A DNA stretch of 48,207 nucleotides from Vulcanimicrobiota bacterium (GTDB lineage: Bacteria; Vulcanimicrobiota; JAJTBE01), in contig JAIORV010000079.1 in the NCBI GenBank assembly GCA_021107945.1, positions 1-48,207 on the forward strand. Reading direction: 5' to 3'. Position numbers and translations under genes: made by a program. Below are positions 1,330 to 47,208 of this stretch, in pieces (within the stretch, counting starts at the first letter, position 1; every line of letters begins with the position of its first letter). A model generated the notes under the pieces. That model ran no database searches and had not been told where the DNA came from. It was given only the letters and a program-made list of their open reading frames with translations.

Positions 1330-1809
1330 ATGAAAAAGAAGATTTACCTGCCAAAGACCCTGAAAGAGCTGCAATCTCTTGACAATGATCGGCTCAAGGA
1401 ATTATGGATGAGATATTTCAATGCCCCACCCATCATGGATTGTCCGAAGACGATCAGGACATTGTGGTACAAGATCCAGTGTGAGAACCATAATTTGCGC
1501 ATTAAACAGAAGAATATCACCAGGTTGAACCGCTATTCAACCAACCCGAACAAGTATATAGAGAAATCATACAAAACCAAGTATCATCTGAGAAGCGGCA
1601 TGGAAATTGTGAAGACATATCAGGGTAGACAGTATCGGATTCTTGTCCGCTCGCCGGGGGAGTTTGTCTATGACAACCAGTCTTACAAAAGCCTGTCGGC
1701 CGTTGCCAGAGCTATCTGCAACAAGAAAGTTTCCGGTTATGACTTCTTCGGGATCAACAATAAGCATTATGAAAAGAATATTGTGAAGGATGAGAAATGC
1801 AAAGGGTAA
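1330..1809 (+). CDS. DUF2924 family protein
   Basis: This 159-residue protein matches the DUF2924 pattern: a short helical N-terminus (LKELQSLDNDRLKELWMRYF) and a C-terminal core with YQGRQYRILV, FVYDNQSYKSLSAVARAIC and YDFFGINN. AAGGAG lies just upstream of the ATG. Its 3' end overlaps the serine recombinase start (1797) by 13 bp in another frame, so the two are translationally coupled. DUF2924 genes are commonly found next to recombinases of this type in prophages. The function is unknown; a DNA-binding accessory of the recombinase is an inference from the coupling only. Confidence 0.85.
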   Translation: MKKKIYLPKTLKELQSLDNDRLKELWMRYFNAPPIMDCPKTIRTLWYKIQCENHNLRIKQKNITRLNRYSTNPNKYIEKSYKTKYHLRSGMEIVKTYQGRQYRILVRSPGEFVYDNQSYKSLSAVARAICNKKVSGYDFFGINNKHYEKNIVKDEKCKG

Positions 1810-3455
1810 ATTGTGCCATATATGTTCGAAAATCTACTGAGAAGGGTTTGGAGCAGGAGTTCAATTCTCTCCACAACCAGGAGGAAGCTTGCAAAAATTA
1901 TATTTTGTCACAGGCTTTTAATGGTTGGGAGTATTTTAAGACTTACGAGGACGGCGGTATCTCTGGCGGGACGATGAAACGCCCGGGTTTGAATGGGATG
2001 CTGAGCGATATGAAGAAGGGACTTGTTCAGACGGTGGTGGTTTACAAGGTTGACCGCCTTTCACGCTCCATTATTGATTTTCACAATATGATGAAGGAGT
2101 TTGAAGAATATGGATGCAGTTTTGTTTCCATCACCCAGGCATTCGACACCTCCAATTCCATGGGGAAACTCACCCTCAATATGCTTCTGTCCTTCGCCCA
2201 GTTTGAACGAGAGGTTTCTGCGGAGAGAATCCGGGACAAGATTGCCGCCACCAAGAAGAAAGGATTGTGGACAGGGGGATGCCCGCCGCTGGGTTATGAT
2301 CTATCTGATAAGAAACTGATTCCCAACCCGAAAGAAGCCGAGTATGTCAGGTTCATCTTTGAGAAATACGTGGAGTTGAAATCCTTAATTAAGCTAAGGA
2401 AATTTCTATTGAACACCCATGTGAGAACCAAGAAATGGACAAGTAAAACCGGTTTAAAGAAGGGCGGAAGGGTATTCTCCCGCTCCATGCTTGCACGCGT
2501 ACTCCGCTCCCAGATCTATATCGGAAGAATTGAGAACAAAAAAGACGGAGTCTCTTACCCGGGAAAACACCAAGCTATTGTCGAGAGTAAAATCTTTAAC
2601 CATGTTCAGTCACTTTTGGATGGAAATCGAAAGAATAGACTGGAAACATACAGCCGAGACTCGTTTCTTCTATCCGGCAAGATATTTGATGAAAGCGGGA
2701 AACCTTTCAAGAATGAGAAGGGGACGAAAAACAGGGTGAAAAAGTATCGCTATTACGCACAAAAAGGACGGTACCTTCCCGCAGGCGACTTTGAGGATAT
2801 TACCTTTGAAGTTGTAAAAGATTTGCTGAACTTTTCGCTGAATAAAATCCTCGAAGATGGGCAGGCGCTTGATTTTAAGCAGATTGATTTTGACGGACTG
2901 ACCTTACGCCAACAAGCAGATTTGATTCGAGCTATGATTTCAAGGATTATCTATCACAATGAAAAGCTGACCTATTTTATCAATGTTGACGACCTGACTT
3001 ACCTCAGGTCATTCGGAAAGAAGGATTACATCAACGCAAAAAATGACGAAAGCGACGCCCGGATATACCTTGCCGGGGACAAGAAAAACCTTGTTGTCGA
3101 GAAAGATATACTACTCGCCAGCCGACCTTCAACGAATCAGTATATCGGGGACGGCAAAAAGATCATTACAGTATCCGGGAACAACACAAATCTGATAAAA
3201 GCCCTCAGCGTTGGATGGAGATACGGAAAGATGTTGGAAGAAGGCAAAAGCATAAGGCAGATCGGGACTACGGAAAAAAGAGCAGACAGGACGATTTACA
3301 AATATCTGAATCTCAACTACCTCTCCCCTAATGTCGTCAACAGCGTAATGGACAGCGAAGCCCCGTCGCATATTAACATGCAAGCACTCTTCAACGTCGC
3401 CTCCAAGTATCCCGACTTCAATGACCAGGAGCGGGTGTTTTATTGTAGGCAATAG
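1797..3455 (+). CDS. Large serine recombinase (site-specific integrase/invertase type)
   Basis: The protein has 552 residues. Residues 1-150 form a resolvase catalytic domain with nucleophile Ser13 in YVRKST, the VYKVDRLSRS motif and FAQFERE. A Recombinase domain follows (GCPPLGYDL, PKEAEYVRFIFEKYVE, GRVFSRSMLARVLRSQIYIG, about residues 160-260). After it comes the LLSGKIFDESGKPF block, which in this subfamily stands in place of the usual Cys4 zinc ribbon: no CxxC pairs are present. The C-terminal ~180 residues include a helix-turn-helix-like stretch (KSIRQIGTTEKRADRTIYKYL). It is coupled to the DUF2924 gene and lies downstream of the terminase relic. The reading frame is intact, so it may still be active. 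Its attachment sites are not recognisable. Confidence 0.9.
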   Translation: MQRVNCAIYVRKSTEKGLEQEFNSLHNQEEACKNYILSQAFNGWEYFKTYEDGGISGGTMKRPGLNGMLSDMKKGLVQTVVVYKVDRLSRSIIDFHNMMKEFEEYGCSFVSITQAFDTSNSMGKLTLNMLLSFAQFEREVSAERIRDKIAATKKKGLWTGGCPPLGYDLSDKKLIPNPKEAEYVRFIFEKYVELKSLIKLRKFLLNTHVRTKKWTSKTGLKKGGRVFSRSMLARVLRSQIYIGRIENKKDGVSYPGKHQAIVESKIFNHVQSLLDGNRKNRLETYSRDSFLLSGKIFDESGKPFKNEKGTKNRVKKYRYYAQKGRYLPAGDFEDITFEVVKDLLNFSLNKILEDGQALDFKQIDFDGLTLRQQADLIRAMISRIIYHNEKLTYFINVDDLTYLRSFGKKDYINAKNDESDARIYLAGDKKNLVVEKDILLASRPSTNQYIGDGKKIITVSGNNTNLIKALSVGWRYGKMLEEGKSIRQIGTTEKRADRTIYKYLNLNYLSPNVVNSVMDSEAPSHINMQALFNVASKYPDFNDQERVFYCRQ

Positions 3456-14898: not shown

Positions 14899-17652
14899 AT
14901 GAAGCCTGAACAAAAAGCAAGGGAAAAAATCGATAATAAGCTTACTGATGCAGGATGGTCAGTTCAGGATTATTCCGAGGTTAATCTCAGTAAATCCCTT
15001 GGTGTCGCTGTCCGTGAATTTCCATTGAATACAGGTTTTGCAGACTATCTGCTTTTTATAGGCAAAAAAGCGGTCGGGGTTATTGAAGCGAAATCTGAAG
15101 GAACGACTTTAAGCGGGGTGACGGCACAGTCAGGGAAATATCTATTCGGATTACCAAAAAACATTCCATGCATAGGCAAGCTCCTCCCATTTGCTTATGA
15201 AAGCACGGGGGCGGAAACATTCTTCAGAGATGAAAGAGATCCTTTCACACAATCAAGAAGAGTTTTTTCGTTCCATAAGCCCGAGACTCTTCTGGAATGG
15301 ACTAATCAGGGAGACACTTTGAGAGCTAGACTCAGGCAAATTCCTCTCTTGAATACCACCGGCTTGAGGAAATGCCAGGTGGAGGCTGTAACAAATCTGG
15401 AAAAATCCTTCAGGAATAACCTGCCTCGCTCCTTAATACAGATGGCTACAGGAAGCGGCAAGACTTACACCGCGGTGAGCTTTGCATACAGGTTGATTAA
15501 ATTCGCAAAAGCCAGGAGGATTCTTTTTCTGGTTGACCGGGGAAACCTGGGACGCCAGACGGAAAAAGAATTCCAGCAATATATCACACCAGACGACGGA
15601 AGAAAATTTACAGAGTTATATAATATTCAAAGGCTCAAATCAAATTACCTGGATCCTATTAGCAAGGTTTCCATAGCAACGATCCAAAGGGTATATTCGA
15701 TGCTGAGAGGAGATGAACTCGACCCGGAAAACGAAGAGCAATCTCTTTTTTATTCGCCCCCTTTGTATGAGGAAAGATCCAGAGATGTTGTCTATAACAG
15801 GAACATCCCCATAGAAACATTCGATTTCATTGTTACCGACGAATGCCACAGATCAATATACAACCTATGGAGGCAGGTTCTGGAATACTTTGACGCCTTC
15901 ATTATCGGACTTACCGCCACGCCCTCGAAACAGACCCTTGGCTTTTTCCATAAAAACCTGGTTACGGAATACTCCCACGAAAGGGCTGTTGCCGATGGGG
16001 TAAATGTGGGATATGAGGTTTACAGAATTAAAACAAAGATCACAGAAAACGGAAGCGAGGTCGAAAAGGGACATTATATAGACAAGCGGGACAGGCTCAC
16101 ACGTAAACGGCGGTGGGAGCAGTTAGACGAGGACCTTGTATATGGCTCAAAGCAATTAGACAGGAATGTAGTGGCGGAAGATCAGATCAGAACAATCATA
16201 AGGAATTTCAGAGATGACCTCTTCACCAAGATTTTCCCCGGCAGAGTTGAAGTACCCAAAACGCTCATATTTGCCAAAGACGACTCCCACGCGGAGGACA
16301 TTGTCCATATTGTCCGGGAGGAATTCGCAAGAGGAAATGAATTCTGCAAGAAGATTACATATAGATCAACCGAGAAGACCGAGGATCTGATACAGGCTTT
16401 CCGTAATTCATACAACCCTAGAATTGTTGTAACCGTTGATATGATTTCCACCGGGACTGATATAAAACCCCTTGAATGCCTCATATTTATGAGGGATGTT
16501 AAATCCAGAGTATATTTCGAACAAATGAAAGGGAGAGGCTCCAGGGTTATTGATCCTGATGAACTGCAAAGGGTGAATCCCGACAGCAGGCATAAGACTC
16601 ATTTTGTAATTGTTGATGCCGTCGGAGTGTGTGAATCGGACAAGACAGATTCAAGACCACTGGAGAGAAAAAAAAGTGTGCCGTTTAAAAATCTTCTGCA
16701 GTCCGTAGCACTGGGAAACAGGGAGGATGATGTAATTACCTCGTTGGCGGGAAGACTTGCCAGGCTTGATCAGACTTTGACCCAAAAGCAAAAAGAGGAA
16801 ATCGGGAAAGAGGCGGGAGGAGCATCAATAAACGACATTGCGAACAGACTTATTGACTCGATTGACCAGGACATAAAGCTAACAAAGGCGGAGGAAATGT
16901 TTGATGTGAAAGACCCGACAGATGAGCAGGTGGAAAAAGCCGCTGAAATGTTAAAAGAGGAAGCATGTGAACCGTTTTATAATCCTGATTTAAGAAATAT
17001 CATTCTCGATATGAAAAGAAAAAACGATCAGACGATTGACATTGTAAGTATAGATGAAGTCATTTTCTCCGGATATGATGAACAGGCGAAAGAGAAAGCT
17101 CAGAATATTATTGATACATTCAGGAAATATATTGAGGACAACAGGGATTACCTTACGGCATTGTCCGTAATATACGACATGCCATATCAGAGAAGACATC
17201 TTACATACAAACAGATAAAGGAGCTTGCCGATTCAATCGGGAAACCTCCCTACAACCTGAAAATACCCGCCCTGTGGCAAGCTTACGAACACCTGGAAAA
17301 GGCACGGAAGCGGGGAGCAGGGGCTGACGTGCTACTGACCGATATTGTTACCCTCATCCGTTATGCCTCCGGCTTGATGAATGAATTGAAACATTTCCCC
17401 GAAGTGGTGGAAGAGCGATTTTTGAAATGGATTGAAGATCAGGAAAAAGCAGGAAAAAAGTTCACCGACGAACAAAAAGAATGGCTTGTAATGATCAAGA
17501 ATTATATTGCTACCTCGATGAGTTTTGAAGCTTCGGATTTCGAGAATTCTCCGTTTACCGAAAGAGGCGGTTCATATAAAGCAGTGGAGTTGTTTGGGAA
17601 AGAGAATGTTTTGGAGATTATTGAGGAGTTGAATGGGGTTTTGGCGGCGTGA
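14899..17652 (+). CDS. hsdR: Type I restriction endonuclease, R subunit
   Basis: The protein has 917 residues. The nuclease site at the N-terminus is FADYLLFIGKKAVGVIEAKS (Asp49, Glu63, Lys65: D-ExK). The helicase motor follows with Walker A ATGSGKT (about residue 183), FLVDRGNLGRQTEKEF, DECH, GLTATPS, and motif V/VI VDMISTGTDIKPLECLIFMR then QMKGRGSRVI. A C-terminal EcoEI-type domain completes it. HsdR translocates DNA and cleaves unmethylated molecules together with HsdS and HsdM. It is the first gene of the operon and overlaps hsdS by 4 bp (GTGA). It is full length with no frameshift. Confidence 0.97.
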   Translation: MKPEQKAREKIDNKLTDAGWSVQDYSEVNLSKSLGVAVREFPLNTGFADYLLFIGKKAVGVIEAKSEGTTLSGVTAQSGKYLFGLPKNIPCIGKLLPFAYESTGAETFFRDERDPFTQSRRVFSFHKPETLLEWTNQGDTLRARLRQIPLLNTTGLRKCQVEAVTNLEKSFRNNLPRSLIQMATGSGKTYTAVSFAYRLIKFAKARRILFLVDRGNLGRQTEKEFQQYITPDDGRKFTELYNIQRLKSNYLDPISKVSIATIQRVYSMLRGDELDPENEEQSLFYSPPLYEERSRDVVYNRNIPIETFDFIVTDECHRSIYNLWRQVLEYFDAFIIGLTATPSKQTLGFFHKNLVTEYSHERAVADGVNVGYEVYRIKTKITENGSEVEKGHYIDKRDRLTRKRRWEQLDEDLVYGSKQLDRNVVAEDQIRTIIRNFRDDLFTKIFPGRVEVPKTLIFAKDDSHAEDIVHIVREEFARGNEFCKKITYRSTEKTEDLIQAFRNSYNPRIVVTVDMISTGTDIKPLECLIFMRDVKSRVYFEQMKGRGSRVIDPDELQRVNPDSRHKTHFVIVDAVGVCESDKTDSRPLERKKSVPFKNLLQSVALGNREDDVITSLAGRLARLDQTLTQKQKEEIGKEAGGASINDIANRLIDSIDQDIKLTKAEEMFDVKDPTDEQVEKAAEMLKEEACEPFYNPDLRNIILDMKRKNDQTIDIVSIDEVIFSGYDEQAKEKAQNIIDTFRKYIEDNRDYLTALSVIYDMPYQRRHLTYKQIKELADSIGKPPYNLKIPALWQAYEHLEKARKRGAGADVLLTDIVTLIRYASGLMNELKHFPEVVEERFLKWIEDQEKAGKKFTDEQKEWLVMIKNYIATSMSFEASDFENSPFTERGGSYKAVELFGKENVLEIIEELNGVLAA

Positions 17653-19085
17653 TAGATGAAATTGTCGTTCCAAAGAGTTGGATAATAGCTATTTTTAGAG
17701 ATATTTTAACTCTTAATTATGGAAAGGGACTGAGAAAAGATAAGAGAGATGATAAAGGAGATTTCGCTGTCTTTGGTTCAAGCGGTGTTGTTGGTTATCA
17801 TAGCAATTGCCTATTGAATCATCCTTGTCTGATTATTGGAAGGAAAGGCTCAATTGGTAAAATATTCAAGTCAATTACTCCTTGCTGGCCTATTGATACA
17901 ACATATTATTTAACTCCACCAAAGCAAATAGATTTAGATTTCTTGTTCCATTTGTTTAACTCTCTAGGTTTTGACCGTATGGATAAATCTACTGCAATTC
18001 CTGGATTAAATAGGGATGATGTATATAAAAGGACAATAATACTACCTCCCCTCAACGAGCAAAGACGCATTGTTGCCAAGATTGAGAAGTTATTTACGAA
18101 GCTTGACGCCGGGATGGATCTGCTGAAAGATTTGAAGGTGCAGGTGAAGCGATACCGTCAGGCAGTTTTGAAGTCGGCATTCACAGGCGAATTAACCAGG
18201 GAATGGAGGGAAGAACAACTCAAAGATCCAAACTCGCTACTGAATAAGGAACCGGCATCCAGTTTGGTAGTAAAGATAAGAAAAAAGCGTGAGGAGTTGG
18301 AAAAGAATCAAAAAATCAAAGTAAGGAAAGAAAAATTATTATCTCCAATAGATATATTGAAATTATCAAAGTTACCAGAATGCTGGAAGTGGGTACAAAT
18401 TGGAGAAATATGTAAGGTGGTAAGTGGAAAGACTCCCAAAGGTATAAATAAGATAAATAATAATAATGGATTGCCCTTCTTCAAAGTTGCTGATATGAAC
18501 AGAGCTGAGAACCGCATTTATATGAGGAAGGCGGGAATATATCTAAATGTAAGACAAATTAAAGAGTTGAAGCCAAAAGTTGTCAAGAGAAAGACAGTCA
18601 TTTTTCCGAAAAGAGGAGGAGCAATAGCCACAAACAAAATCAGAATCATCAATAAGGACTCAGCCTTCGATTTAAATATTATGGGAGTATGTCCATTGAT
18701 TTTTCCCGATAAATACTTTTTTTATCTGATTTCAAGTGTTAATCTAATTACATTATCTGATGGATCTAATGTTCCTCAAATTAATCATCACGATATAGAA
18801 CCATTAGTGATCCCCTTTGCGCCATTGTCTGAGCAGAAAGTCATCATTGAAGAAATAGATAAACACTTTTCCATCGCCGACGAATTAGAGAAATTTATCG
18901 ATCAATCAATAAAACAGGGAAAGAAGCTCCGGCAGAGCATTCTGAAAAAGGCGTTTGAGGGGAAGCTTGTTCCACAGGATCCAAATGACGAACCTGCTTC
19001 AGTTCTCCTGAAAAAAATCAAAGCGGAGAAGGCGAAAAGAGAAGCTGAAGAAAAATCAAGGCGAAAAAAAAGTAAGAGGAAATAA
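17649..19085 (+). CDS. hsdS: Type I restriction-modification specificity subunit S
   Basis: The protein has 478 residues from GTG. There are two target-recognition domains, at about residues 5-140 and 240-405, each ending in the family signature (PPLNEQRRIVAKIEKLF and APLSEQKVIIEEIDKHF) and followed by a helical spacer (KRYRQAVLKSAFTGEL and KKLRQSILKKAFEGKL). HsdS sets the DNA sequence recognised by both restriction and methylation. The two recognition domains are visibly more AT-rich than the spacers and the flanking hsdR and hsdM, as expected where recognition domains are exchanged. The target site cannot be predicted from sequence. Confidence 0.95.
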   Translation: MIDEIVVPKSWIIAIFRDILTLNYGKGLRKDKRDDKGDFAVFGSSGVVGYHSNCLLNHPCLIIGRKGSIGKIFKSITPCWPIDTTYYLTPPKQIDLDFLFHLFNSLGFDRMDKSTAIPGLNRDDVYKRTIILPPLNEQRRIVAKIEKLFTKLDAGMDLLKDLKVQVKRYRQAVLKSAFTGELTREWREEQLKDPNSLLNKEPASSLVVKIRKKREELEKNQKIKVRKEKLLSPIDILKLSKLPECWKWVQIGEICKVVSGKTPKGINKINNNNGLPFFKVADMNRAENRIYMRKAGIYLNVRQIKELKPKVVKRKTVIFPKRGGAIATNKIRIINKDSAFDLNIMGVCPLIFPDKYFFYLISSVNLITLSDGSNVPQINHHDIEPLVIPFAPLSEQKVIIEEIDKHFSIADELEKFIDQSIKQGKKLRQSILKKAFEGKLVPQDPNDEPASVLLKKIKAEKAKREAEEKSRRKKSKRK

Positions 19086-19099
19086 GGAGATTATATATC

Positions 19100-20560
19100 A
19101 TGTCCGAGAAATCCACGCCCATTGTTCAAAGACTATGGAACTACTGCACCGTATTGAGAGACGATGGCGTAAGTTACGGCGACTATGTGGAGCAGTTGAC
19201 ATACCTTCTTTTTCTGAAAATGGCTGACGAACAGGCAAAAAATACCCTTGTAGAGCATAAAATCAGGATCCCCGACGGATACACATGGTCGGATCTCCAG
19301 GAAAAAGAAGGAGATGAATTGGAGGTTCATTACCGTCATACCCTGGAAAAACTGGCAAAAGAGCGCGGGATGTTGGGAGTTATATTTCGAAAATCACAAA
19401 ACAGGATACAGGATCCCGCAAAATTGAAACGCCTTGTGGAGTTGATTAACGAGGAAAAATGGATGGCGATGGATGCCGATATAAAGGGGGACATATACGA
19501 GGGATTACTGGAAAAGAACGCTCAGGACATAAAAAGCGGCGCCGGGCAGTATTTTACACCCAGAACCCTTATCCGGGCAATGGTGGAAGTAATGAAGCCA
19601 AAAGCGGAGATGACAATATGCGATCCCGCCTGTGGAACCGGGGGATTTTTCCTCTCAGCTTATGATTACATATCAAAAAAATACAGGCTGGACAGAGATC
19701 AAAAAAAATTACTGAAAAACAGGACGCTTCATGGCATGGATATAGTTGATAATGTTGTTCGCCTATGTGTTATGAATCTCTTTCTTCATGGCATAGGATC
19801 CGACAGGGTTCCTGTAAAATGCGCCGACTCACTTCGGTCTCACCCCGGTGAATATTATGATATGATTCTCACCAACCCTCCCTTTGGCAAAAAAAGCAGT
19901 ATCACCATAATAAACGGCGATGGAAAAGGCACGCGCCAGGCGGTAACTTATGAGCGCGACGACTTTTGGGCGACAACATCCAACAAACAGTTGAACTTCC
20001 TGCAACATGTAAGATCAATACTGAAGACAAGCGGGAGAGCGGCGATTGTTGTCCCCGACAATGTCCTTTTCGAGGGAGGAGCCGGGGAGACAATAAGAAG
20101 AAAACTTCTCTCCCAGTGTGATATTCATACATTACTCAGGCTTCCCACAGGAATTTTCTATGCTCAGGGAGTCAAGGCGAATGTGCTTTTCTTTGACAAC
20201 CGTCCTGGTCAGGAGAAGCCCTGGACGGAAAATTTGTGGATATATGACCTCAGAACAAATATACATTTCACCCTCAAGACAAAACCGATGAAACATGAAG
20301 ACCTTCGGGATTTCATTCAATGCTACAATCCCGACAACAGACATAACAGAAAAGAAACGGATAGATTCAAATGCTTCAGTTACGATGAACTCATTCAACG
20401 GGATAAGGTAAACCTTGATATTTTCTGGTTGAAAGATGAAAGCCTTGAAGATTCCGATAACCTGCCGGATCCCGTAGTGCTTGCATCCCAGATAGTCGAT
20501 AATCTTGAATCGGCATTGGAGCAGTTCAGGGGGATTTGTGAGGAATTGGAAGGTGTTTGA
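19100..20560 (+). CDS. hsdM: Type I restriction-modification DNA methyltransferase subunit M
   Basis: The protein has 486 residues. The N-terminal HsdM_N domain (RLWNYCTVLRDDGVSYGDYV) precedes an N6-adenine methylase domain with SAM motif I DPACGTGGFF (about residue 174) and catalytic motif IV NPPF. QYFTPRTLIRAMVEVM is the usual lead-in. TAAGGAG stands in front of the ATG, 14 bp after hsdS. It methylates adenine in the site defined by HsdS. The R-S-M order is less common than R-M-S. Confidence 0.97.
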   Translation: MSEKSTPIVQRLWNYCTVLRDDGVSYGDYVEQLTYLLFLKMADEQAKNTLVEHKIRIPDGYTWSDLQEKEGDELEVHYRHTLEKLAKERGMLGVIFRKSQNRIQDPAKLKRLVELINEEKWMAMDADIKGDIYEGLLEKNAQDIKSGAGQYFTPRTLIRAMVEVMKPKAEMTICDPACGTGGFFLSAYDYISKKYRLDRDQKKLLKNRTLHGMDIVDNVVRLCVMNLFLHGIGSDRVPVKCADSLRSHPGEYYDMILTNPPFGKKSSITIINGDGKGTRQAVTYERDDFWATTSNKQLNFLQHVRSILKTSGRAAIVVPDNVLFEGGAGETIRRKLLSQCDIHTLLRLPTGIFYAQGVKANVLFFDNRPGQEKPWTENLWIYDLRTNIHFTLKTKPMKHEDLRDFIQCYNPDNRHNRKETDRFKCFSYDELIQRDKVNLDIFWLKDESLEDSDNLPDPVVLASQIVDNLESALEQFRGICEELEGV

Positions 20561-38325: not shown

Positions 38326-41300
38326 TTATTTGTGTTCCACTTTTTCCCCAAGTCGCTCAAGCTCCCGGGCAATCTTTTTACGAAACAATTCATTCTTCAG
38401 GTTAACCGCAACTTTATAGCCTTTATTGAACTGCTTAATACTCTCGGACTTTCTTCGTTTTCGTTCGAGAACCAGCCCCAGGTTATAATGGGCGTTCAGA
38501 TCCAGCGGATCAATTTCCAGGGTCTGCTTGTAAGCGTCAATGACGAGGTCGAGTTTGCCTGCCTTTGCATAAGCCACTCCGAGATTGTAATACACTTTCG
38601 GATCTCTGGGACTCAGGGCGATTGCCTTCTTATACTCCTCAATGGCTGCGTCAAGCTTGTTTGTGGCGGCATATGCAATTCCCAGGTTACTATGCGCCTC
38701 AATCAGGTTATTATTAAGTGAGATTGCCTTTTTCAGAGCTTTCATCGCAAGGTCAACCTTCCCTCGTCTGAAGTAGATAAGACCAAGCTTGCTGTATGAG
38801 ACGGCATCCTTTGCATTTAGATCAACCGCCTGCTCATAAGCCTCCGCCGCCTTATCCAGTTTGCCCTTCTGAGTATATATAAGACCCAGATTTTGATAAG
38901 GTTGAGCCCAGAAAGGAGCGCATTCCTTTGCATGCAGGAATTCCTGAAGAGCGCTGTCATATTTGCCTTTCCGCAGATATACCTTTCCAAGTCCTTCATG
39001 TGCCACCGCGAAATCGGGACTCAGGGCAAGTGCCTTCTTCTGGTTATTAAGCGAGAGATCCCATTTGCCCATCTTGAAATAAACATTACCCATAAGTGAA
39101 TATACTTCCGGGGATGTGGTTATATTCAAAGCCTTCTCGAAAGCCATTATGGCCAGGCCGTAATCCTTTCTGTCCGTGTAGGCCTTGCCTGTTTGAATTT
39201 GAAGGTCGAGATCGTTTGGATCCAAATCCAGGGCAATCTGGAATTGTTCAATAGCCAATTCCATCTCACCGATTTTCTGGTAAAGTATGCCGAGTTCTTT
39301 TTGGCAAGTTGAGTAGGTGGGATATTCCTTCAGTATTTTCTGGAATTCCGCCCGTGCGATATCCACTTCTCCAAGTTCGCTCATACATTTCGATCTGGCA
39401 AATCTGAGCTTCAGATCGGGTTTCTCACTGGCTTCAAATGCCTCCTGAAATTCCTGAAAGGCGAGCTCAAGTTTTTCCTGTTTCATAAATAACAAACCAA
39501 GCTGGTATCGTACTTCCGACTCATTATAGAATGGTGTAGCTTTTTTAAACTGAATCTCGGCATTATCATAATCGCCAAGCTCCATCCAGGTTATACCCAA
39601 TAAGTACCACAGGTCAACTGCGGGGCAGCGATACTCCTCGGCTTTTGTGAATGATTTAACAGCTTTTTGTAATTTTCCCAGCGCCATCTGCACCTTACCA
39701 AGATTATAGTGAATATTATCAAGCTCGTTGGTAGGATTATTTTTCAATGCTTCTTTAAATGAATCTTCGGCAATATGATAACGCCCTCTGGAAAGCTGAA
39801 CAAGACCGTGATAATAATAAAAATCCCATACTTCAGGTTTGATTTCTATAGACGCCTCAAGTTTTTGCGAAGCTTCTTCAAATTTTTCATGATGAAAATA
39901 GATTCTTCCGAGGTAATAATGTGAATAAGCATTTCCGGGATTCAACTTCAAGCTATTTTGAAATTGAGTTGTTGCAAATTCATATTCTTCATTATCAAAA
40001 TAAGTCAATCCAAGAAGATAATGATATTCCTCGCTCTTGGGATTCAGATCAATAGCGGTTCTTAGTGATTTGATAGCTTCGGGAAGTTTTTGATCCATCC
40101 TGTAGGCCCTGGATAATTGATAGAGGTAATTTGGCTCTCTCTGGTTCAAGGCGGACGCCTTTTTCAGATTTGTTATAGATTCAGCGGTTTCTCCCTTATT
40201 CAAATAAGCCATACCACATTCATAATAATATAAAGCCGTTTCCTGCGAAAGTTTGATGGCGGCTTCAAATTCCTCTATGGCCTCATCAATATGATTTGAT
40301 TTTACAAATGCAATTGCAAGAAGATGGTGTAGTTCATGTCGATATGGAGTAATCTCAAGTGCCTTTTTCAGGGCGTAAATGGCAAGATCCCAAAGCCCTA
40401 ACTTTTCGTATGCACGACCCAACTCGAAACAAGCATCATAATTTCTGGGGTTATGTTGTATTGCTTTTCTATAACATTCAATGGCGAGATCCATTTGTTC
40501 CAGCTTGAAATACGACAACCCCAACGCATAGTATAGATGCCCGTTCTGTGAATTCAGATCCACCGCTTTTTTATAGCACTGTATCGCCTCACGATACTTG
40601 TGTAGTCCTGCATATGCCATTCCCATGAGATAGTGTATCTGGCTCTGTCCGGGTTTGAAGCTTAGCGCCTTTTCATATTGTGTGATTGCCAGGTCAAGTT
40701 TGTTTAACTCTGCATAAGCATTTCCAAGAACCGCATATATGTCGGGATTTTCAGACTCGAGCATCAGGGACTTCTGATACCGCTTAACAGCCAGATCAAG
40801 TCGTCCAAGCCGGGCGTATGAAATACCAAGCTCAAAGTAAGCGTCGGCCATCTGCGAATCCAGATCTATCGCTCTCTGGTATTCCTTGTTTGCAAGGTTG
40901 AAATTCCCTAATCTCGAGTGAACCTTTCCCAGGGCAAAATGTGATTGTGCACTTTGCGGTTCAAGCTCTATGGATACATTAAATTCCTTGATTGCCGTCC
41001 CCAGTTTGCCCTGTTTTGCATACGCCTGTCCCATATTATAATGAACATGAGCATCGTTGGGATCAAGATCGATAGCCTTGAGGAATTCCTGAATTGCAGG
41101 ACCCAGTTGCTCCGTTTCCATGTATGCAAGACCGAGGTTATTGTGGGTATATGGGTCATTGGGATCCAGCGCAATCGCTTTGCGGTAGGACCGAATCGTG
41201 TCGAGTACATTGCCAAGTTTTGCATAGACCCTGCCCAGGTTATAGTGATAATAAGCATCGTTGGGGTCAAGCTCTATAGCCCTTTTAAACTCTTCTATCG

Positions 41301-42015
41301 CTTCGTTCAGGTTATTAAGACCGGTATATGCAAGTCCTAATTGATAGTGAACCTGTGCCTTGTCGGGGTTAATTTTTATGCTGTCCTTGAATTCCCTTAC
41401 AGCCTGCTCCATTTTTAACTGCCGGGAGAGAACAAGGCCGTAGTTAAAATGAGCATCCATATTTTTGAAATCCAGGCGTATTGCAGCTTGAAATTCATCG
41501 GAGGCTTGCTCATACTTACCCTGGCGAAAGAATGCCTGCCCAAGGTTTAGTCTTGCTTCTATATCCGTCGGGTCCTTTTTAACCGCCTTTGTAAAGTCGC
41601 CAAGTCCCTGCAGTCTTTCCAGCTCCCGTTGTATCCGTCTTTCTCCTATGAAATCATTTTGATTCTGAACGATCTTCAGTGCAACCTGTAATTCAGTAAT
41701 GGCTTTGTCGCGCAGTCCCATTTTTTCATAGACGAGACCCAGGTTATAATGAGCGCGCATAAAATTGGGAACAAGCGCAAGAACTTCCTGCCATTCCTTG
41801 ATAGCCATTTCAAGGTTTCCCTTGCGGTAATACACTGTGCCCAATTCATAGTGTCCCTGTACATTTTCCGGACTCAACTCAACTACCTTTTGAAATTCGG
41901 ATATTGCCATATTCAGTTTGTTCTGATAGAGATATTGCGAGCCCTTTTGGTAATGAAGCTGTGCCTCATCAACGTTCTCAATACGATCATCTTCTGTAAT
42001 ATTGTATCGGTCCAC
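38326..42015 (-). CDS. Giant tetratricopeptide-repeat protein
   Basis: The protein has 1229 residues, made almost wholly of about 34 tandem TPR units of 34 residues (e.g. AHVHYNMGQAYAKQGKLGTA; VYYNLGVAYAKAGKLDLVID). There is no signal peptide, membrane segment or enzymatic domain. The long superhelix would serve as a protein-binding scaffold. Two non-TPR segments look alike: RRIQRELERLQGLG near residue 125 and RKKIARELERLGEK at the C-terminus. These may be capping helices left from a fusion of two arrays. The start is GTG (42013-42015) with AAGGAGTGG upstream. The partner is unknown. Confidence 0.93.
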   Translation of the reverse strand: MDRYNITEDDRIENVDEAQLHYQKGSQYLYQNKLNMAISEFQKVVELSPENVQGHYELGTVYYRKGNLEMAIKEWQEVLALVPNFMRAHYNLGLVYEKMGLRDKAITELQVALKIVQNQNDFIGERRIQRELERLQGLGDFTKAVKKDPTDIEARLNLGQAFFRQGKYEQASDEFQAAIRLDFKNMDAHFNYGLVLSRQLKMEQAVREFKDSIKINPDKAQVHYQLGLAYTGLNNLNEAIEEFKRAIELDPNDAYYHYNLGRVYAKLGNVLDTIRSYRKAIALDPNDPYTHNNLGLAYMETEQLGPAIQEFLKAIDLDPNDAHVHYNMGQAYAKQGKLGTAIKEFNVSIELEPQSAQSHFALGKVHSRLGNFNLANKEYQRAIDLDSQMADAYFELGISYARLGRLDLAVKRYQKSLMLESENPDIYAVLGNAYAELNKLDLAITQYEKALSFKPGQSQIHYLMGMAYAGLHKYREAIQCYKKAVDLNSQNGHLYYALGLSYFKLEQMDLAIECYRKAIQHNPRNYDACFELGRAYEKLGLWDLAIYALKKALEITPYRHELHHLLAIAFVKSNHIDEAIEEFEAAIKLSQETALYYYECGMAYLNKGETAESITNLKKASALNQREPNYLYQLSRAYRMDQKLPEAIKSLRTAIDLNPKSEEYHYLLGLTYFDNEEYEFATTQFQNSLKLNPGNAYSHYYLGRIYFHHEKFEEASQKLEASIEIKPEVWDFYYYHGLVQLSRGRYHIAEDSFKEALKNNPTNELDNIHYNLGKVQMALGKLQKAVKSFTKAEEYRCPAVDLWYLLGITWMELGDYDNAEIQFKKATPFYNESEVRYQLGLLFMKQEKLELAFQEFQEAFEASEKPDLKLRFARSKCMSELGEVDIARAEFQKILKEYPTYSTCQKELGILYQKIGEMELAIEQFQIALDLDPNDLDLQIQTGKAYTDRKDYGLAIMAFEKALNITTSPEVYSLMGNVYFKMGKWDLSLNNQKKALALSPDFAVAHEGLGKVYLRKGKYDSALQEFLHAKECAPFWAQPYQNLGLIYTQKGKLDKAAEAYEQAVDLNAKDAVSYSKLGLIYFRRGKVDLAMKALKKAISLNNNLIEAHSNLGIAYAATNKLDAAIEEYKKAIALSPRDPKVYYNLGVAYAKAGKLDLVIDAYKQTLEIDPLDLNAHYNLGLVLERKRRKSESIKQFNKGYKVAVNLKNELFRKKIARELERLGEKVEHK

Positions 42016-45201: not shown

Positions 45202-45582
45202 TTGTATTGTCCTAAATGTGGTGCTCAAAATGATGATAATAGCTACAAATGTGTAAGTTGCAGCTATTTACTACATGCCAAGCCCGCAAGGCAAATGCCG
45301 CGTCCGATTCAGTCTGACGATTCCCTTGGTGGATTGATCCCCTACAAAAATCCGTATTCTCTCATTTCTTATTACCTGGCAGTTTTTTCACTTATCCCCG
45401 GAATCGGTCTGATACTCGGATCTATCGCATTTTTTCTGGGCATGAAAGGACTACGGTTTTATCAGGAGCATCCCGAATCCGGTGGGAAAATTCACTCCTG
45501 GGTGGGTATAATTCTTGGTGGTATATGTGGCTTTGGATCAATTATCCTGGTCATATTTATTATAATAATGTCGCAACAATAG
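45202..45582 (+). CDS. Zinc-ribbon membrane protein (DUF4190-like)
   Basis: The protein has 126 residues. The N-terminal zinc ribbon is CPKCGAQNDDNSYKCVSC. After a Pro-rich linker come NPYSLISYYLAVFSLIPGIG and two membrane helices (LILGSIAFFLGMKGLRF; SWVGIILGGICGFGSIILVI), resembling DUF4190. The start is TTG with a G-rich site upstream. It is 9 bp from the next gene, which also begins MYCPKCGA, so the two are likely co-expressed. The function is unknown. Confidence 0.8.
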   Translation: MYCPKCGAQNDDNSYKCVSCSYLLHAKPARQMPRPIQSDDSLGGLIPYKNPYSLISYYLAVFSLIPGIGLILGSIAFFLGMKGLRFYQEHPESGGKIHSWVGIILGGICGFGSIILVIFIIIMSQQ

Positions 45583-45591
45583 GAGGATGCC

Positions 45592-46008
45592 ATGTATTGT
45601 CCAAAATGTGGCGCTATGAACGATGAGAACGCATGGAAATGCGTAGAATGTGGAGATGAGCTTCCGCATGCCGGCGAAGCTCCGCCTCCGGGTGGTCCTG
45701 TCGGCGGACCGATGGGCGAGCCTATGGGAAGTCCTATGGGTGTCCCCATGGGAGAGCCACCGCCAAAAATCAATAATTACCTTGTCCCGTCAATTTTAGC
45801 AACAATCTTTTGTTGCTGGCCCATGGGAATAGCTGCGATAGTTTTTGCGGCGCAGGCTAACAGCAAAATGGGACAGGGCGACTATGAAGGCGCAGTACAG
45901 AGCGCGGAAAAAGCTAAAACCTGGACCTGGATAACAGTGGGGGCAGGCGCGTTGATCGGTGTTATTTATATCGCTCTTATGATACTGGGGGCGGCGGCGG
46001 GGAACTGA
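45592..46008 (+). CDS. Zinc-ribbon protein with GxPM repeats and CD225/dispanin domain
   Basis: The protein has 138 residues. The zinc ribbon is CPKCGAMNDENAWKCVECG. It is followed by a glycine-proline-methionine repeat (GGPMGEPMGSPMGVPMGEP). The C-terminal half, NNYLVPSILATIFCCWPMGI then AAIVFAAQANSKMGQGDYEG, with a second helix, is a CD225/dispanin domain, the family of interferon-induced transmembrane proteins. AGGAGG lies in front of the ATG. It is part of the three-gene cluster 45202-46462. The bacterial role is unknown. Confidence 0.9.
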   Translation: MYCPKCGAMNDENAWKCVECGDELPHAGEAPPPGGPVGGPMGEPMGSPMGVPMGEPPPKINNYLVPSILATIFCCWPMGIAAIVFAAQANSKMGQGDYEGAVQSAEKAKTWTWITVGAGALIGVIYIALMILGAAAGN

Positions 46009-46012
46009 TCGA

Positions 46013-46462
46013 ATGGGATTAAATAAGTATTTTATCCCCGATAACTCCCCCGTTTCAACCAGACAGCGCATTCAAACAGCCCTTATAATATTCCTGGTTA
46101 TGGTTGCCGCGGTTTTCTTGTTCCTTTTTAGCCCATTTAAAGCTAACATTTATCCACCATGCCCCTTCTTCGCCCTGACAGGATACTTCTGCCCGGGGTG
46201 CGGATCCTTGAGGGGACTGTATAAGCTGTTGCACGGGGATGTTATAGGTGCATTAAAAATGAACCCGTTTATGGTGTTAATGACACCATATATTTCTTAT
46301 TATTTTCTTTCTCATTTGATGGTGGTTATAAGAGGTCGTCCACTACCATGGATTTTCGTACCCGGTTACCTGATATGGACCCTTCTTGTTGTCATATTAC
46401 TTTTCTGGTTTACCAGAAACCTACCCTACTTCCCCTTCACCTTGCTTGCGCCTTCTTCTTGA
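46013..46462 (+). CDS. DUF2752 membrane protein
   Basis: The protein has 149 residues and three to four membrane helices. The family core is PPCPFFALTGYFCPGCGSLR then GLYKLLHGDVIGALKMNPFM, with the conserved CPGCG and HGD...NP motifs. It starts 5 bp after the CD225 gene stop, so the two are coupled. DUF2752 genes are often found beside CD225 or TM2 genes. The function is unknown. Confidence 0.92.
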   Translation: MGLNKYFIPDNSPVSTRQRIQTALIIFLVMVAAVFLFLFSPFKANIYPPCPFFALTGYFCPGCGSLRGLYKLLHGDVIGALKMNPFMVLMTPYISYYFLSHLMVVIRGRPLPWIFVPGYLIWTLLVVILLFWFTRNLPYFPFTLLAPSS

Positions 46463-46557: not shown

Positions 46558-47208
46558 ATGGACATAAACTGGAATGGAAAATGCATGTTTTGTGGCAGGA
46601 TTATAAACAAGAGGGGGATGAAAAAACATCTTAAAACATGTAAATCACGAATAGAGCTGATTGATTCTAAAGATGACAAATCAGAAAAATTTTTTTGTAT
46701 TAGCGCTCAGGATTACTTTTTGCCTGAATTCTGGCTATTACTGAGTATTCCCGTTAACTCGACCCTTGAAGAGCTGGATATGTTCTTATATAATATCTGG
46801 CTTATTAATTGTGGCGATCATCCCAGCCAATTTATAATTCAAGGGATTAAATATGTCGATATGGCATGTTGTATATATTTTATGATGGAGCATTGTATGG
46901 ATGCCAAATTAAATGAAGTTCTAAAAGTCGCAGATGAATTTGTCTATGAAAATACTTATGGTTCCAATGTCAGGTTTGAGCTAAAAGTTATGTTTGAATA
47001 CAGCGGGAAAAAGGGAAAAGAGAAAGCAAGTCTTATGGCGCGTAATATAGCACCCGATATCAGGTGTTATAAATGTGATAAAAAAGCCACGATAATATCT
47101 CCCGAATCTCTATATTCAAGTTTTCATTATATGTGTGAAGAATGTGCAGATGAATCTGGAGGGGATATGCTACTACCGCTTGTGAATTCTCCTGTAATAG
47201 GAATTTAA
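46558..47208 (+). CDS. Zinc-finger protein with pRiA4b ORF-3-like domain
   Basis: The protein has 216 residues. It starts with a C2H2-like finger (CMFCGRIINKRGMKKHLKTC). Residues ~45-100 read FWLLLSIPVNSTLEELDMFL then YNIWLINCGDHPSQFII, the pattern of the pRiA4b ORF-3-like family (LE.LD.FLR.IWLECCGH). A second cysteine cluster at the end (CYKCDKK, CEECADE) forms another likely zinc site. AAAGGAG lies upstream of the ATG. A nucleic-acid or protein-binding role is possible; the function is unknown. Confidence 0.75.
   Translation: MDINWNGKCMFCGRIINKRGMKKHLKTCKSRIELIDSKDDKSEKFFCISAQDYFLPEFWLLLSIPVNSTLEELDMFLYNIWLINCGDHPSQFIIQGIKYVDMACCIYFMMEHCMDAKLNEVLKVADEFVYENTYGSNVRFELKVMFEYSGKKGKEKASLMARNIAPDIRCYKCDKKATIISPESLYSSFHYMCEECADESGGDMLLPLVNSPVIGI

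Follow-up and report, generated by a model that had tools for sequence, protein, structure and literature searches.

CD225/dispanin and DUF2752 genes recur side by side across bacteria: a candidate inner-membrane complex at a Vulcanimicrobiota locus

The window (the whole stretch of DNA analysed, 48,207 nt from a Vulcanimicrobiota bacterium) carries three tandem open reading frames (ORFs) on the + strand at 45202-46462, recognised from an ORF list and Pfam searches. ORF1 (45202-45582, +; 126 aa, TTG start) encodes a protein with a zinc ribbon (CxxC..CxxC) and two transmembrane (TM) segments, ORF2 (45592-46008, +; 138 aa) a zinc ribbon followed by a Gly/Pro linker and a CD225/dispanin domain, and ORF3 (46013-46462, +; 149 aa) a DUF2752 membrane protein. 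The gap between ORF1 and ORF2 is 9 nt. An earlier note on this DNA had placed the DUF2752 gene 5 bp downstream of ORF2; it does follow directly, at a distance of 4 nt. The same note described near-identical N-terminal zinc ribbons in the two neighbouring genes, joined to different membrane domains, and both observations hold, with 16 of the first 24 residues identical and CD225 present in ORF2 only. The ribbon of ORF1 scores 25.7 bits against Zn_Ribbon_1 (cut-off 25) and that of ORF2 22.5 bits, slightly below the cut-off. No family reaches its cut-off for the membrane part of ORF1; the best match is to a CCC-motif membrane protein (E 5e-4, 20.4 bits, cut-off 65), and this part of the protein appears remotely similar to CCC-motif/DUF4190 proteins. 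ORF2 matches CD225 (PF04505; E 1.2e-24, 86.6 bits, cut-off 27.1) and ORF3 matches DUF2752 (PF10825; E 3.6e-17, 62.6 bits, cut-off 27). Promoter and terminator signals at the locus showed no excess over shuffled sequence. The 5.56-Mb host genome has a single CD225 gene and a single DUF2752 gene, adjoining each other, which argues that their pairing is not due to chance.

The gene directly after the cluster (46558-47208) gave sub-cut-off matches only (Baculo_p47, 22.2 bits, cut-off 25; PRiA4_ORF3, 13.5 bits). By eye, positions 38326-42015 encode a 1229-aa protein consisting almost entirely of TPR-like repeats, and what looks like an intact type I restriction-modification operon (R, S, M) lies at 14899-20560, some 25 kb away. 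Close to the start of the contig, a fragment resembling a phage terminase (453-1169) and a gene resembling a large serine recombinase (1797-3455), also identified by eye, suggest a mobile-element remnant.

The conservation of this arrangement was assessed by a scan of genome contigs, in which the best 80 of 517 relatives, ranked by similarity to the CD225 of this phylum, were retained. They came from Chloroflexota, Spirochaetes, Kiritimatiellae, Lentisphaerae, Planctomycetes, Omnitrophota, Acidobacteria, Cyanobacteria, Bacteroidetes, Actinobacteria, Proteobacteria and other groups; two of the loci (L032 and L044) are probably the same as G004:C67 and G003:C305 of the host's own phylum, so the sets probably overlap. 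Among these best 80 of 517, 75 loci have a DUF2752 gene no farther than 640 bp from the CD225 core; one of the 75 (L041) is partly masked and weak. The DUF2752 gene is on the same strand in 73 (downstream of CD225 in 68, upstream in 5) and on the opposite strand in the other two, L051 and L076. The five loci without DUF2752 include two that end soon after CD225 (L077 and L082) and three that lack it despite sufficient room (L062, L065 and L085). In none of the 80 loci are CD225 and DUF2752 fused into a single ORF. The distance from the CD225 stop to the DUF2752 start has a median of 6 nt (68 loci), a value obtained by taking the nearest start codon and hence not used as evidence.

Because the 80 loci were selected by similarity, genomes were also drawn evenly from three phyla; the centre genomes of these draws (G058, G059 and G060) had been picked for carrying the pair and are therefore excluded from the P values, which, for Actinomycetota, Pseudomonadota and the host's own phylum, are uncorrected for kinship. 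CD225 was above the cut-off in 12 of 149 Actinomycetota genomes (13 genes) and DUF2752 in 40; all 12 CD225 genomes have DUF2752, in 11 cases on the same strand and at most about 260 bp away, and 28 of the 40 DUF2752 genomes lack CD225 (hypergeometric P 1.3e-7). Five of 378 Pseudomonadota genomes have CD225, and DUF2752 was found in exactly those five, at no more than 400 bp and on the same strand (P 1.2e-9). CD225 is present in three of 198 Bacteroidota genomes, each time adjacent to DUF2752; co-occurrence at genome level is uninformative there (P 0.26), because 102 of the 198 genomes have DUF2752. The host's own phylum was represented by 58 genomes, host included, with CD225 above the cut-off in seven and DUF2752 in ten, including all seven with CD225 (P 2.3e-6, host left out). 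The pair is adjacent in three of these genomes (the host, G003 and G004) and on different contigs in four (G030, G034, G040 and G042), three of which share the genus label g26. Matches below the cut-off were dropped: one in the own phylum (G025, 21 bits), two CD225 matches each in Actinomycetota and Pseudomonadota, and two DUF2752 and three TM2 matches in Bacteroidota. For many genomes of the own phylum and of the three draws, first-look candidates were only partly scored, and some genes may have been missed. In the four genomes of family f13 that have the pair on separate contigs (loci L022, L025, L026 and L027), a gyrB/parE-like gene was seen by eye beside the DUF2752 stretch.

The earlier note had presented the genes as a conserved bacterial set, to be judged by their co-occurrence in other genomes; such co-occurrence extends across many phyla, both in the similarity-ranked loci and in the three draws. 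The dependence is one-way: CD225 near-obligately accompanies DUF2752, and the reverse does not hold. What these data support best is joint action of bacterial dispanins with DUF2752.

ORF1 is a less regular member of the set. Its homologues (phmmer E 1e-10 or better) lie directly upstream of CD225, their ends at most about 50 nt away, in 11 of the 80 loci (L036, L037, L042, L043, L047, L050, L051, L053, L070, L072 and L076), of lentisphaeral, kiritimatiellal, planctomycete, omnitrophote, CSSED10-310, verrucomicrobial and acidobacterial origin. The recurrence of this order in such diverse loci indicates that the arrangement in the window is an old, recurring set in which ORF1 is optional. Neighbouring proteins were clustered to look for a third stable partner besides ORF1. 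A single recurrent cluster emerged, whose 16 proteins are partly ORF1 homologues and partly other zinc-ribbon membrane proteins, pilin-like ones among them; the other clusters occurred in 3 to 5 loci, and no such partner was retained. In L048, L056, L059, L068 and L077, zinc-ribbon or Cys-rich proteins that have a membrane helix, several of them pilin-like, occupy the ORF1 position immediately upstream of CD225 (by eye).

The CD225 domain of ORF2 spans residues 58-126. It shares with the CD225/dispanin family (IFITM1-3, PRRT1, PRRT2) the PF04505 match, the double cysteine (CC) in the first membrane helix, and the G-D and A-x6-A loop motifs, all three of which have been described as family motifs (PMC3282796). 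All 80 aligned relatives match PF04505, and a profile built from the 80 sequences matches PRRT1 (9zks, E 4.8e-18). C74 and C75 are invariant in 80/80 sequences, a count drawn from a biased sample, since one of the two search patterns included CC; G79 and A101 are also invariant, and A108, the second alanine of the A-x6-A motif, is found in 79/80. G96-D97-x-x-G100 is near-invariant (G96 in 78/80, D97 in 76/80), and G96 and G100 presumably correspond to the 91GxxxG95 motif of IFITM3. This motif drives oligomerisation and membrane stiffening (PMC7665892), and the bacterial proteins thus appear, from their sequences, to have kept the corresponding site, which would bear on the suggestion of the earlier note that the set may act in membrane shaping or in sensing membrane change. 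The structural model (pLDDT 79.1, pTM 0.47) has helices at 64-74, 78-94 and 98-137 and matched nothing in the PDB at E 0.001 or better. The N-terminal zinc ribbon is predicted to be cytosolic, and the CC to sit in the break that separates two short membrane helices. ORF2 differs from animal dispanins in being bacterial and in its zinc ribbon and near-obligate DUF2752 neighbour. The sequence before helix 1 reads PKINNYLV and lacks the helix-flanking Asp of the animal IFITM subfamily, a residue said to be restricted to eukaryotes (PMC3282796). The GxPM repeats of the earlier note are real, with four tandem copies at residues 38-53 (45703-45750, +), but every ORF of at least 50 aa in the 80 related loci has fewer than two tandem copies. 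The stretch therefore looks like a local low-complexity linker outside the conserved set, and its reading as a functional motif was rejected.

PF10825 is matched by all 70 aligned DUF2752 partner proteins, which share the signature CxGCGxxR...N...RN; the invariant residues are C60, G62, C63, G64, R67, N84, R135 and N136. C60 and C63 are the only invariant cysteines (C50 is found in 65/70). The model of ORF3 (pLDDT 88.6) has TM helices at 16-38, 85-107 and 118-135 and short helices at 51-56, 61-73 and 77-83. Mean K/R versus D/E counts per sequence are 1.09/0.17 for the N-terminus, 1.83/2.09 for loop 1, 2.93/0.47 for loop 2 and 0.31/0.33 for the C-terminus. The positive charge of the N-terminus and loop 2 places both in the cytosol and all of the invariant residues on the outside, so that DUF2752 is predicted to be an N-in protein with three TM helices and with CxGCGxxR, N84 and R135-N136 at the extracytoplasmic face. 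Fold searches gave no PDB or viral-model match at E 0.001 or better and a single VIA row (Z 2.2), and no solved relative was found in structure and profile searches; this lack of a match is no proof of a new fold. DUF2752 shares with E. coli DsbB, a member of the DsbB/VKOR thiol oxidases, the spacing C-x-x-C-x-x-x-R and, within a small membrane protein, a CxxC predicted to face the extracytoplasmic side, but its three predicted TM helices are fewer than the four of DsbB. No homology was detected: hhalign of the DUF2752 alignment against E. coli DsbB alone gave a probability of 0.1 over 9 columns, and the spacing is taken as an analogy only.

DUF2752 has been shown by these surveys to swap partners among tiny membrane families (CD225, TM2, CCC and DUF4234). 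TM2 proteins (PF05154; animal TM2D1-3) are tiny two-TM neighbours of DUF2752 as well, but constitute a separate family that is absent from this locus. In Bacteroidota, 70 of the 114 DUF2752 genes above the cut-off have a TM2 gene no more than 600 bp away, always on the same strand, and widening the search range to 5 kb adds none; three lie beside CD225. The remaining 41 have, by our own profiles, CCC (16), DUF4234 (3), DUF4870 (1) or a more distant, sub-cut-off TM2 protein (1) nearby, and 20 have no neighbour matching a partner model. Some of these 20 loci have other small membrane neighbours, DUF5684-like for example. Curated models, applied to 54 DUF2752 neighbours, gave concordant families, matching MpPF26 (11), TM2 (9), DUF4190 (7), DUF4234 (3) and CCC (12). 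A zinc-ribbon/DUF4190-like gene lies beside DUF2752 in L028 (by eye), and TM2 lies beside it in two actinomycetotal loci (L131 and L138), while 19 of 30 sampled actinomycetotal DUF2752 loci had no partner by our own profiles. In L189, a CCC-motif gene is flanked by two DUF2752 genes of different subtypes. A Cys is present in the TM2 stretch of 69 of the 70 TM2 proteins beside DUF2752 (in one alignment column in 91%), versus 34 of 66 other TM2 proteins; the TM2 protein of G679, with a sub-cut-off DUF2752 match alongside, was left out. In G619, the source of the one exception, a DUF4234-like neighbour carrying CC is present too. The contrast weakens on clustering, from 8/8 versus 10/25 clusters at 70% identity (P 0.004) to 4/4 versus 7/15 at 60% (P 0.10), and the TM2 cysteine enrichment is therefore a lead rather than proof.

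A mechanism can be proposed on the basis of the biology of IFITM3 and the conserved residues. The locus would be a small operon encoding an inner-membrane complex of dispanin and DUF2752, joined in some lineages by a third, related zinc-ribbon/two-TM subunit. The dispanin might oligomerise via GD-x-x-G and order or deform the membrane as IFITM3 does, and the CxxC of its dedicated DUF2752 partner might act on, or with, the membrane cysteines of the partner as a thiol-redox, metal or lipid-handling site, in this way setting the assembly of the complex according to the state of the envelope. We give this reading a probability of about 0.35. The pairing in the 80 loci and in the draws, the co-occurrence in the own phylum, the three-gene order, the partner swapping, the invariant residues, the charge bias and modelled helices of DUF2752, and the cysteines of TM2 proteins beside it are all consistent with it. 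Several observations count against it: the cysteines of IFITM3 face the cytosol, whereas the CxxC of DUF2752 is predicted to lie outside; the 20 partnerless Bacteroidota genes and the 28 Actinomycetota DUF2752 genomes without CD225 have DUF2752 without a dispanin; the TM2 enrichment shrinks when relatives are clustered; and DUF2752 gave no fold match or solved relative. The CC motif is, in addition, equally conserved in animal dispanins (PMC3282796), which we do not link to DUF2752.

The swapping among CD225, TM2, CCC and DUF4234 and the small size of DUF2752 would also fit a role of this protein as a structural subunit, or as a factor in the assembly of tiny two-TM proteins, with cysteines that bind zinc or merely stabilise the fold. 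This is a possible, if doubtful, explanation, given that the invariant Arg and Asn resemble a functional site and that just two cysteines are invariant. DUF2752 could instead be an outer-leaflet lipid-handling enzyme, in which Arg and Asn would hold a phospholipid headgroup and which would S-acylate, or pass a lipid to, a cysteine of the partner (dispanin, TM2/CCC). R67, N84, R135, N136 and C60/C63 do lie on one predicted membrane face, the partners do carry cysteines (the CC of CD225 and the Cys of TM2), and mycobacterial dispanins are reported to be S-palmitoylated when produced in human cells (PMC4488726). Profile and fold searches revealed no homology of DUF2752 to any acyltransferase, however, and the CC may be unreachable from the outer face. 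Acylation of a dispanin within bacteria is not known to us, and we consider this explanation unlikely. Adjacency by chance or shared ancestry alone merits next to no credence: local synteny can last without function, but the genes are adjacent across many phyla, co-occur unlinked in four genomes of the own phylum and reach hypergeometric P values as low as 1.2e-9.

CD225 homology, together with the moderate restriction of influenza virus by mycobacterial dispanins in human cells (PMC4488726), could also point to an antiphage defence module, a bacterial counterpart of the antiviral action of IFITM proteins. PADLOC models gave no match above chance (best Cas12a, E 0.073, 9.3 bits, at the zinc-ribbon end of ORF1; none for ORF2 or ORF3), CD225 was found in one of 72,556 plasmid records (an 11.85-Mb replicon), one of 50,697 phage records and no viral contig searched, and none of the recurrent neighbours looks, by eye, like a defence gene. 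Antiphage defence is unlikely because of this near-absence from mobile and viral sequences and the lack of a real PADLOC match; we accord it very little weight, and the earlier hint at phage entry gains nothing from these searches.

It is more speculative, and quite improbable, that dispanins originated in bacteria as the membrane-ordering half of a two-part system in which DUF2752 is a new membrane thiol or lipid enzyme for the intramembrane cysteines of CD225, TM2, CCC and DUF4234 proteins, the palmitoylated CC of animal IFITM proteins being a relic of a bacterial site left without its partner. DUF2752 links CD225 and TM2, the animal members of which have each been tied to gamma-secretase (PMC7661164, PMC8714088), a parallel that is only suggestive. 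No mention of DUF2752/PF10825 was found in the literature searched, which covers few subscription journals and preprints, and gene-neighbourhood databases may already display the pair. The range of partners of the DUF2752 family is described here, and the pairing with CD225 provides a first functional context for it. Bacterial dispanins have been proposed as the source of IFITM genes, and the same paper leaves open the reason for their CC, on the ground that S-palmitoylation is said not to occur in bacterial proteins (PMC3282796). A near-obligate partner with an invariant CxxC offers a concrete handle on this question and on the role of bacterial dispanins, and the recurring pairing makes the native job of bacterial CD225 proteins testable.
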